From positions 1 through 57,676 of the forward strand of contig JAAYJK010000045.1 of NCBI GenBank assembly GCA_012522955.1: a stretch of 57,676 nucleotides of DNA. The letters are read 5' to 3'. A program made the translations under genes and the position numbers. Under the pieces are notes generated by a model. That model worked only from the letters and a program-made list of their open reading frames with translations. It was not told where the DNA came from and searched no databases. Shown piece after piece: positions 22,715 to 52,419 of this stretch (positions within the stretch are counted from its first letter, which is position 1; each line of letters starts with the position of its first letter). This DNA comes from Syntrophomonadaceae bacterium. GTDB taxonomy: Bacteria > Bacillota > Syntrophomonadia > Syntrophomonadales > Syntrophomonadaceae.

Positions 22715-22771
22715 ATAAACTTGGAGTCAGGAAAAATTGATGAATTAGATAATTTATAAGGAGTGAAAGGT

Positions 22772-23128
22772 ATGAGATTAGCCATAGCTAGAACTGGCGA
22801 TGAAGCTGCCCAGCATTTCGGGCACTGTGATAACTTCGTTATATACGATTTAGAGGACAATAAAGTCATTAGTCAAACGGTTTTACAGAACCCGGGGCAT
22901 GCTCCCGGAGTACTGCCGCCATTTTTGCATCAGCAGGGAGTTCACGTAGTTATTGCTGGAGGCATGGGACAGCGGGCCCGAGACTTATTCTCTGAAAACA
23001 ATATTCAAACTATTACCGGCCTGGCTGGCAGTGTAGATCAGATCCTGGCAGCTTATTTAACTAATACTCTGCAGGCTAGCAATGAAACCTGTTCCCATGA
23101 AGAGCATGATCATGAATGTCATAACTAG
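22772..23128 (+). CDS. NifX/NifB-type dinitrogenase iron-molybdenum cofactor biosynthesis domain protein
   Basis: A 118-residue protein consisting of one NifX-like domain: MRLAIARTGDEAAQHFGHCDNF, a central VHVVIAGGMGQRARDLF and LAGSVDQILAAYL. The C-terminus carries a Cys/His cluster (CSHEEHDHECHN) that suggests metal binding. Stand-alone members of this family in anaerobes are often near Mrp/ParA-type iron-sulfur carriers and are thought to hold Fe-S or metal clusters. The ATG at 22772 follows AAGGAG by eight bases. No nitrogenase gene is present, so a nitrogen-fixation role is not implied. Confidence 0.88.
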   Translation: MRLAIARTGDEAAQHFGHCDNFVIYDLEDNKVISQTVLQNPGHAPGVLPPFLHQQGVHVVIAGGMGQRARDLFSENNIQTITGLAGSVDQILAAYLTNTLQASNETCSHEEHDHECHN

Positions 23129-24957: not shown

Positions 24958-25003
24958 TCCTTTGCCCCCCAAGCGGGGATGTAATCCTTCTAGTATAATT
25001 GCA

Positions 25004-25030
25004 AGCAGCAGGTTCACCTGCTGCTTTTTT
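25004..25030 (+). terminator. Thiolase terminator
   Basis: A 10-bp perfect stem AGCAGCAGGT / ACCTGCTGCT with a two-base loop is followed by six T. It lies 47 bases past the thiolase stop. Confidence 0.9.
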
Positions 25031-25186
25031 AAATCGGACGAAGCTGACTATAAACTTAGGATAAATAAGGTCTTATAATAAATGGTGTTTGTTCGTTTAT
25101 ACTTATGCTCAAGAAGCTGTCCCTGAGCCTAGACTGCTGCCCCAATTGGCTACCCCTACACTATATATAAACTGGAGGTGTTTATT

Positions 25187-25858
25187 GTGAAATCACTGTT
25201 ACTGCTGTCTCCTCATCCCCGCCAAGGCAAAACCACCATCGGGGTTAATCTGGCGGTGGGCTTAACCCGCTTGGGATACAAAACCCTGCTGCTGGAATGC
25301 GGTGACCCTTCTTTATTAAGGCTATGGTTTGACCTGCCCCAGGATAGCCAGGGGGTGCAGCACCCAAGGCCTGAGATGGGAATTGATCTACTCCTTATTT
25401 CTGATTATTCCTATGAGCTGGACCGATTGGCCTCCTATGACTGTATAGTAATAGATACCAGTGAAGACTATATCCAATATAAGCAGCTTATAGATCAGGC
25501 TACTCTTATAGCAGCCTGTACTGATTTGAGAGCAGATGATGCCCATGATATACCGGCCTTGGAGCAGGAGATAAGCCGGGTTAGATCCAGACAGCCGGCC
25601 ATAGATATCATCATTCCTAATATAATTAATACTAAAGAATGGAGCCATAATAGCCAGGTACTGTTCAATCTGATGGATTCCTGGGGAGAAGATAGAATAG
25701 CTGATATGATACCTAAATGAAGCGCTATTTACGACCTTCCCCGGGTCGGGAAGCATATCTGGCAGCTGCCGGAACAGTATCTTAACCGACAAAAAGTCTT
25801 TGATCGTCTGGTACAAGGGATACACTCCGCCTGTTATCCTAGTGGAGATAAACCGTGA
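25187..25858 (+). CDS. ParA/MinD-like ATPase-fold protein with an in-frame TGA at codon 178 (possible selenoprotein or nonsense mutation)
   Basis: P-loop protein of the MinD/ParA type. GTG at 25187 follows GGAGG by eight bases. The P-loop SPHPRQGKTTIGVNLAVG lacks the signature first lysine of deviant Walker A proteins, and a second motif reads YDCIVIDTSEDY. The frame meets TGA at 25718-25720 (codon 178, after DMIPK) and continues open for 45 more codons (SAIYDLPRVGKHIWQLPEQY and onward) to a TGA at 25856. In MinD-like relatives I expect a cysteine near this point, in an IPxC..I.DLP context. A 6-bp hairpin with GGU in its loop follows the TGA at selenocysteine-insertion distance. Either the TGA is read as selenocysteine, or the gene carries a late nonsense mutation; the 177-residue product may still fold. 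Confidence 0.7.
25736..25753 (+). promoter_or_regulatory. SECIS-like hairpin after the in-frame TGA of the ParA-like gene
   Basis: CTTCCC (25736-25741) and GGGAAG (25748-25753) form a 6-bp perfect stem around the loop CGGGTC, which contains GGU. It begins 16 bases after the TGA. The E. coli fdhF element has a similar stem size, loop and distance with AGGUCU in the loop. Activity is inferred only. The alternative pairing CGACC/GGTCG competes with it. Confidence 0.45.
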
Positions 25859-50009: not shown

Positions 50010-50437
50010 CGCGCATCCCTCAGCTTTCTGTTCGGTCCCAGTTTCTTAACGTCTTCTACCACTTTTTTCATGGTTTCCTGGAACTTGGGTCCTTCGGCTC
50101 CGGATATCCAGGCGGTCTGGTATCTTTCCGGTTCCATGCCGATATATTCCATCAGGCTTTTTATCATAATATGACGACGGCGGTTGTAGTAATTGCCACT
50201 ACCATAGTGGCAGTCTCCCGGGTGTCATCCGGACAAAAGTACGCCGTCGGCTCCCCGATTAAATGCTCTTAAGACCAGCATGGGGTCCATGCGTCCTGAG
50301 CAGGGGGTTCTGATTATTCGCACATCGGCGGGATACTCCAGGTGGTTTAGCCCGGCTAAATCTGCTGCTGCATAGCTGCACCAGTTGCAGGCGAATACTA
50401 TTACCTTGGGTTCCCATTTTTCTTTATCTATAGACAC
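50006..50437 (-). CDS. flxD: FlxD/MvhD-family [2Fe-2S] subunit, predicted selenoprotein (TGA = Sec71)
   Basis: MvhD-family protein of 143 residues that links the flavin/NADH module to HdrA. Reading starts at GTG 50437. Conserved cysteines are in FACNWCSYAA and TPCSGRMDP. After GADGVLLSG there is a TGA (50227-50225), followed in the same frame by HPGDCHYGSGNYYNRRR and the family's usual end, EGPKFQETMKKVVEDVKKLG. Family members have cysteine there (CHPGDCHY). A 7-bp hairpin with loop AUGGU follows the TGA. VhuD of Methanococcus, the same family, is a known selenoprotein. The real stop is TGA overlapping the flxC ATG. Treating the gene as broken would need the frame and all motifs after the TGA to be conserved by chance. 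Confidence 0.85.
50194..50212 (-). promoter_or_regulatory. SECIS-like hairpin of flxD
   Basis: On the minus strand TGCCACT-ATGGT-AGTGGCA forms a 7-bp perfect stem with a five-base loop containing GGU. It begins 12 bases after the in-frame TGA, so the loop is about 20-24 bases downstream, as in bacterial selenocysteine insertion elements such as that of E. coli fdhF. Confidence 0.75.
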
Positions 50438-52419
50438 AGTGCATCCACCTCCGATACCAGTTGTTCGTCGGTATAGCCTTTAAGGTTTAGCGCTGCAGTT
50501 CGGCAGGCGGGGATACAAGCTCCACAACCCTGGCACAAACTGCTGTTTACCTCGGCTATGGTCCTAGTAAACGGTCCATGACCATGACCGCCTCGCTCCT
50601 GAATGTCTTTTAAGGATATGGCATTATACGGACAAATAGGTACACACAGACCACATCCAGAACACTTGATGCTATCCACCTCTGAGGTCATGGGTTCGGT
50701 GGCCAGCTCAGTCTTGGAGAACAGTCCACACACCTTAACTGCGGCAGCACTAGCCTGGGCTACGCTGTCCGGGATATCCTTTGGTCCCTGGCAGGCTCCG
50801 GCCAGATATACTCCGGCGGAAAAGGTTTCTACCGGCTGCAGTTTGGGATGGGCTTCCTGGTACCATCCGTCTTTATCTGTGGAAAATCCTATGGTTTTAG
50901 CCAGTTCCAAAGACCCTTGGGATGGCACCATGGCGGTGGCCAGTACTACCAGGTCGGCTTCTACTTCAATGGGCCTCCCTATTAGAGTATCTTCGGACTT
51001 TAGTACCAGCTTGTCCCCCTTAGGATAAATCTTGCTTACCCGCCCCCGGATAAAGGTGGCTCCTTCGTTAAGGGCCCGCTGATAGAATTCTTCATAGTTT
51101 TTGCCTGCAGTACGTACGTCCATGTAGAATACATAGGCTTCGCTGTCTTCAATCTTGGTTTTCACCTGATAAGCATGCTTGGCGGTATACATACAACAGG
51201 CTCTGGAGCAGTAGCTCTTGCCTTTAGTATCATCACGGGAACCTACGCATTTAATAAAGGCTACGCTCTTGGGTTCTTTGCCATCCGAAGGCCTCTTTAT
51301 GTGACCCAGGGTGGGTCCCCCTGCGCTGACCAGTCTTTCAAAATGGAGACCGGAGATAACATCCGGGTATTTACCATAACCATATTCTCCATAGGCTTCT
51401 TCCCACTGGAATAGGTCGTAACCAGTGGCCATAACGATGGCGCCGATTTCGTAATCCACATATTGATCCTGGTCATCAAATTTAATGGCTCCTACCGGGC
51501 ATATTTTTTCACAAACTCCGCACTTGTCTTCGGTCAGCTTGCGGCAGTTATCGGCATCAATATATGGTTTACCGGGTACGGCCTGGGGAAACAGCTTGTG
51601 AATAGCCGGTCTTATTCCCATTCCCAGGTCGAATTCGTCTTTCAGTTTCTTGGTAGGACATTTTTCGGTACACAGTCCGCAGCCGGTACAGGCGTCCCAG
51701 TCAACGTATTTTGCTTTCTTCTTTATCTGGACTTGGAAATTACCAATATATCCAGATATTTTGCTCACTTCTGCATAAGTTACTAGTTCAATGTTAGGAT
51801 GCTGCGCCACAGCAACCATCTTGGGGGTGCCTATTCAGGCGGCGCAGTCCATGGTGGGGAAAGTTTTATCCAGCTGAGTCATTTTGCCTCCGATGGAGGC
51901 TTCCCGCTCTACCAGCACTACCTGGTGCCCGGCCTCGGCTATATCCAAGGCGGACTGCATACCCGCTATTCCTCCCCCTATGACCAGTGCCCGTTTGGTA
52001 ATGGGTATGGTAGAAACCTGCAAGGGCTTGTTTTTTAAGACCTTACTTACTCCCATCCTCACCAGATCTTGGGCTTTTTTGGTAGCTGATTGCAGGTCAT
52101 GGTGTACCCAGGAGATTTGTTCCCGAATATTTACCATTTCAAACATATATCCATTCAGTCCTCCGCTTACTACGGCTTTGCGGAAGGTGTTCTCGTGCAT
52201 GCGCGGCGAACAGGATGCAACTACAATCTGTTCTAATTGGTGCTCTTCTATGGCATTCCTGATCAGTTCCTGGCCGGGATCTGAGCACATATATTTATAG
52301 GTGGTAGCATAGGCTACCCCGGGTAATGTTCTGGCGTATTCTGCCACTTTTTCGGTATCTATGGTGGCTTCTATATTGGTGCCGCACTGGCAAACAAATA
52401 CGCCTGCTCGTTTCTTCAT
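50428..52419 (-). CDS. hdrA: HdrA: FAD/4Fe-4S subunit of heterodisulfide-reductase-like complex, predicted selenoprotein (TGA = Sec195)
   Basis: Flavin-based bifurcating subunit, 663 residues with the TGA read through. The N-terminal domain has VFVCQCGTNIE and VASCSPRMHE; the FAD site is VIGGGIAGMQSALDIA; inserted ferredoxin motifs are CTGCGLCTEKCP and CGVCEKICPVGAI; C-terminal ones are CSGCGLCVPICP and CQGCGACIPAC. At 51837-51835, after TFPTMDCAA, TGA takes the place of the second cysteine of the family phrase DCxxCxLTPKM; IGTPKMVAVAQHPNIELVTY follows in the same frame. HdrA of Methanococcus is a known selenoprotein. A hairpin lies 20 bases after the TGA. Two separate proteins or a frameshift are ruled out by frame continuity. 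Confidence 0.88.
51800..51814 (-). promoter_or_regulatory. SECIS-like hairpin of hdrA
   Basis: On the minus strand TGCTG-TGGCG-CAGCA is a 5-bp perfect stem with a five-base loop that contains GG. It begins 21 bases after the TGA; a two-base outer helix with a bulge extends it. It is less canonical than the flxD element because the loop has GGC instead of GGU. Confidence 0.55.

Follow-up and report, generated by a model that had tools for sequence, protein, structure and literature searches.

A gene on the forward strand of the 57,676-nucleotide stretch of DNA analysed here (the window) very probably belongs to a family of SelB-dependent selenoproteins, with selenocysteine (Sec) at an in-frame UGA at codon 178 (probability about 0.93), because its relatives show either UGA with a conserved hairpin or cysteine at exactly the same place. 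The features of the gene and its flanks are as follows.

25187-25858, forward strand: predicted ParA/MinD-like selenoprotein gene, 223 residues, GTG start, Sec codon 178, terminal TGA at 25856-25858
25174-25178, forward strand: Shine-Dalgarno-like GGAGG, 8 nt 5' of the GTG start (25187), seen in the sequence
25718-25720, forward strand: in-frame UGA, predicted Sec codon 178, motif IP-x-U-x-x-I-x-D-L-P; only TGA, TGT or TGC aligned here in 42/42 homologues
25003-25026, forward strand: intrinsic-terminator-like hairpin, 3' of the upstream thiolase gene

The gene probably has its own transcript, since a terminator-like hairpin follows the thiolase gene and the metallo-beta-lactamase gene downstream is convergent. 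The sequence-only reading had placed a TGA at codon 178 followed by 45 open codons and, 16 bases after the TGA, a 6-bp hairpin with loop CGGGUC; coordinates, spacing and loop were all exact on the sequence, with 45 sense codons between TGA 178 and the terminal TGA. Taken alone, the open frame past the TGA is weak evidence, because 16 TGA codons in the window are preceded by at least 80 open codons and followed by at least 40. Synonymous and nonsynonymous counts 3' of the UGA leaned to constraint, over a stretch too short to count alone. The 16 comparable frames, and a standard ORF call that ends at TGA 178, would fit an ordinary stop, with a 177-residue truncated ParA-like protein as the product and a downstream frame that is decaying or open by chance.

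Homologues were found in 30 of 61 related genomes in a first search, about half of the matches having exactly one in-frame TGA. A C-terminal profile (A2) searched in 63 genomes of the Syntrophomonadales and in 398 genomes sampled from the phylum gave matches in 39 genomes of the order and, in the phylum sample, in three genomes of one other family. A contig scan with A1, a pattern of the Walker A motif only, gave mainly generic ParA proteins, the only true relatives being L060 (Syntrophomonas sp. DTU019) and L061 (Syntrophomonadaceae). A total of 42 homologous loci were extracted from the Syntrophomonadales and the one other family, of which 41 aligned members are used for column counts. The codon at site 178 was TGA in 21 homologues and a cysteine codon (TGT/TGC) in 21, with no other residue, and the family motif around the site is [IVL]P-x-[U/C]-x-x-I-x-[DE]-L-P...[VI]W. 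All 42 continued past the site into a conserved C-terminus (IxDLPxxGxxVWxL; L055 is cut by the contig end) and none ended near codon 178. The sequence-only reading had looked to homologues with Cys at the site and the same C-terminus for support, and to homologues that all end near codon 178, or that carry an unrelated residue and no hairpin, for refutation; the family bears out the former, with Cys in half of the members and UGA in the rest, and the UGA members keep the hairpin. An ordinary stop at codon 178 is thus extremely improbable, as all of the homologues run on, half of them with Cys, and truncation would leave the ParA fold without its final portion. At least six changes between the Sec and Cys states were counted on the best maximum-likelihood tree (4-6 in bootstrap trees), so Sec and Cys have been swapped repeatedly. 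In the other family of the phylum, L131 (G205) has the UGA form with the hairpin and the remaining members, L129 and L130, have Cys. The UGA form is also carried by G025, which we take to be Syntrophomonas wolfei; G038 is presumably Syntrophothermus lipocalidus.

The hairpin lies directly downstream of the UGA.

25736-25753, forward strand: putative bacterial SECIS hairpin CUUCCC-CGGGUC-GGGAAG, starting at the 16th base after the UGA, loop CGGGUC

The stem in the window has 6 bp with pairing probabilities of 0.81-0.86, the family consensus stem has 7 bp from +16, and apical loops in the UGA genes are of the UGGA, CGGG or GGGU type, with G in the loop. The case for the hairpin rests on comparison, because the single-sequence fold of the window was ordinary for its composition (z = -0.69 over 81 nt; z = -1.31 over 58 nt). 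A gapless alignment of the 51 nt from the TGA compared 20 distinct TGA sequences with 20 Cys genes, pairing stem columns 19-25 with 30-36. In the UGA genes 92.1% of stem cells were paired, 25 cells were altered on both sides and four of the seven pairs varied on both sides (CG/UA, GC/UA, CG/GC). Covariation was 0.523 compared to 0.247 in shuffles, with none of 500 shuffles as high, and sliding the partner columns abolished the pairing signal. In the Cys genes, whose peptide motif is the same, the equivalent columns were 50.7% paired, the level of the shuffles, and RNAalifold returned no structure. A stem of dG <= -5 kcal/mol was present in 21/21 UGA genes compared to 2/20 Cys genes, and permutation of codons for the same peptide gave a median P of 0.028 for the UGA genes compared to 0.669 for the Cys genes. 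The compensatory changes that the sequence-only reading had proposed to look for were therefore found in the UGA members, with the hairpin missing from the Cys members save for one or two relics. The Cys-encoding L040 (Syntrophomonas sp. DTU019) keeps a strong SECIS-like hairpin at the equivalent place, probably a relic of a recent change from Sec to Cys. Rfam SECIS_1 (RF00031) had no match in the genome of the window and none in the control genomes either, and is hence uninformative.

The machinery for Sec insertion is encoded in the same genome, where selB (377 bits) and tRNA-Sec (71 bits) lie approximately 1.7 kb apart on contig C57. Among UGA genomes, selB was above the cut-off in all 15 searched for it and a strong tRNA-Sec was present in 19/21, the exceptions (G075, G077) being fragmented MAGs. 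In G018, which has the Cys form, no selB match reached the cut-off and no strong tRNA-Sec was present. The window holds two further genes with an in-frame UGA, which the sequence-only reading had taken as a sign that the organism decodes UGA as Sec, and both proved real.

50428-52419, reverse strand: HdrA2-type selenoprotein gene, UGA at 51837-51835, MDCAAU (a CxxU motif); ordinary ORF calling splits the gene at the Sec codon
50009-50479, reverse strand: MvhD/VhuD-like selenoprotein gene directly after HdrA2, UGA at 50227-50225, LLSGUHPGDCHYGSGNYYNRRR (motif GUHPGDC)

An 8-bp hairpin lies 3' of the UGA of the MvhD/VhuD-like gene. That UGA 178 might be decoded otherwise, as Trp by reassignment or readthrough, or might be a sequencing error, is very unlikely. 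The exchanging residue was Cys and never Trp, and TGA also terminates the selenoprotein gene itself, which speaks against reassignment. An error or a non-Sec reading would also have to explain why 21 separate genomes have UGA together with a covarying SECIS hairpin not shared by the Cys genes, and why selB and tRNA-Sec are present. By sequence comparison, UGA 178 is instead very probably read as Sec under the SECIS hairpin 16 nt downstream.

Pfam and NCBIfam gave weak ParA/MinD-type matches only, far under their cut-offs, with three members scoring 23-37 bits on ParA_partition (NF041546) compared to the curated cut-off of 180 bits. A profile search of solved structures found Soj and ParF. The AF2 model, built from three sequences, had a pLDDT of 62.6 and a pTM of 0.68, with residues 147-179, including Sec, below 50. 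It matched Soj of T. thermophilus (1wcv) with a Z of 16.1 and an rmsd of 3.3 over 207 residues. The model thus indicates a ParA/Soj fold that is completed by the last 45 residues, since the match spans model residues 1-217. In the profile alignment Sec178 falls on the Asn of IPRNVRL in Soj. In ParA, MinD and NifH structures this IP-x-x loop borders the nucleotide pocket on its adenine/ribose side. The P-loop of the protein is degenerate.

25214-25237, forward strand: degenerate P-loop HPRQGKTT in the translation, Walker A lysine kept, signature lysine absent

The sequence-only reading had stated that the P-loop lacks the signature lysine and that the protein may not be a standard ATPase. The first statement holds, KGGxGKT reading HPRQGKT with H at the signature position, although the Walker A lysine of GKTT is nevertheless kept. 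The second fits the family as a whole better than the window protein. Among the 41 members the signature position was K in one, the Walker A lysine position was K in 14, Q in 19 and another residue in eight, and the switch aspartate was D in 12, compared to Sec or Cys at site 178 in 41/41. Because of this imbalance, the selenol or thiol, rather than ATP hydrolysis, appears to be the conserved core of the family. The window protein may still bind and hydrolyse ATP, because it keeps both the Walker A lysine and the switch aspartate. These two residues and the ParA/Soj fold are what would be expected of a standard ParA/MinD ATPase for partition or septum positioning, with Sec as a minor ornament. 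Such a function is improbable given the loss of ATPase residues across the family and scores so far under the NF041546 cut-off.

A possible partner for Sec178 is Cys111 (codon 25517-25519, at the end of the CTDL strand), which was present in 33/41 members and could pair with it in most of the family. No CxxC was found in the translated window protein and no CxxU or UxxC in the selenoprotein. The missing CxxU speaks against a dithiol oxidoreductase of the classic type, although pairing with Cys111 is conceivable in most members.

The neighbourhood of the gene provides the main lead on its role. ORP-like genes (the NifX/ORP domain PF02579, a ferredoxin-insert MinD pair, Mrp/NBP35 and DUF134) were present within approximately 6.5 kb at 12 of the 41 loci (L037, L038, L040, L045, L048, L050, L051, L057, L120, L121, L124, L127). 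These include UGA as well as Cys loci, and the gene order and orientation take several forms. DUF134 is near-ubiquitous in the order, so that its presence in a genome tells nothing and the evidence lies in its proximity; as genomes of 2-3 Mb hold one or two DUF134 genes each, we estimate that about 0.6% of loci would be expected to have such a neighbour by chance, far below what was observed. In the window and its genus the sole ORP-like neighbour is a NifX-like gene, which occupies an equivalent place in L033-L035 of the same genus.

22763-23128, forward strand: NifX/ORP-type protein (PF02579; Pfam 1.5e-22), two genes upstream of the selenoprotein gene

The ORP complex of Desulfovibrio consists of proteins of these ORP-like kinds, which bind Fe-S or Mo-Cu sulfide clusters; it receives Fe-S clusters from MrpORP, and a part in septum placement is no more than a suggestion (PMC6345978, PMC3897727, PMC4672049). 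The protein could also be a selenoprotein whose link to ORP genes is incidental, such as an enzyme of thiol/selenol redox chemistry or detoxification, or an orphan regulator of the ParA type, a reading to which we give slightly less than an even chance. About 29/41 loci had no close ORP-like cluster, many of them on short contigs, and a CofE/F420-0 ligase-like gene (PF01996), mostly divergent, is also a recurrent neighbour, at five loci (L036, L037, L039, L056, L058). The conserved Cys111 would suit a redox enzyme, and the missing CxxU/UxxC would set it apart from most redox selenoproteins. Inherited synteny explains poorly why ORP-like neighbours recur in varied orders and orientations across lineages.

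Because the gene repeatedly adjoins ORP-like clusters, a role alongside ORP-type machinery is the most likely one, and we propose it tentatively. Sec178, or Cys in half of the family, would form the functional centre in the IP-x-x loop, acting either as a selenolate or thiolate ligand of a metal or cluster or as a redox switch with one thiol, to which Cys111 may be a partner in most members. The residues that ATP hydrolysis requires, the lysine and the aspartate, are missing from much of the family, and the selenoprotein would partner ORP/NBP35-type anaerobic metal-sulfur cluster machinery, perhaps as a heterodimer subunit. A more speculative proposal, on balance doubtful, is that a ParA-type nucleotide pocket was rebuilt around Sec, with selenol chemistry or the binding of a metal taking over from ATP hydrolysis at the working centre, and serves an ORP/NBP35-type complex in syntrophic anaerobes.

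We could not find the family in current catalogues. ParA/MinD is absent from the 119 prokaryotic families and subfamilies of selenoproteins tabulated in a 2026 review (PMC13188914), no model in NCBIfam 20.0 is specific to a ParA-like selenoprotein family, and no ParA/MinD selenoprotein was found in the literature, in keeping with the sequence-only reading, which knew of none. The list of selenoproteins published in 2006 for Syntrophomonas wolfei is likewise without a ParA-like family (PMC1794560), and catalogues would thus have missed it despite its occurrence in a genome presumed to be of that species; ordinary ORF calling cuts such genes at the UGA. If correct, the bacterial selenoproteome would gain a family whose fold is neither thioredoxin-like nor that of the metal oxidoreductases, the folds usual among its members. 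That the family holds on to Cys/Sec as its ATPase residues decay suggests that the ParA scaffold has a use so far unrecognised, and the link to ORP-type genes offers a lead, open to testing, on the building or use of metal-sulfur complexes in anaerobes.

The nearest P-loop entry in the 2026 table, the CobW-related NF041053, is also a selenoprotein of the P-loop NTPase type whose prediction came from Cys/Sec pairing, but it belongs to the CobW/G3E P-loop family and has its own UxxC motif (PMC13188914). The HdrA and MvhD/VhuD selenoproteins share the genome and the decoding system; they are known families that differ in motif (CxxU or GUHPGDC) and in having unrelated folds. The Desulfovibrio ORP complex (Orp3/Orp4, MrpORP) likewise contains ParA/MinD-type P-loop proteins of anaerobes, and the family's gene often adjoins relatives of Orp3/4, Orp8 and Mrp. 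The selenoprotein is, however, not among the described ORP proteins, has no ferredoxin insert or CxxC, and has a Sec/Cys unreported there (PMC6345978). The Mrp/NBP35/ApbC Fe-S carriers have a C-terminal CxxC motif that is absent from the window protein. ParA/Soj (1wcv) and ParF/MinD are like the selenoprotein in fold (residues 1-217), P-loop position and alignment of the IP loop, whereas the selenoprotein is without the signature lysine, most members are without the Walker A lysine and switch aspartate, and the Asn that follows IPR in Soj is replaced by Sec or Cys throughout the family.
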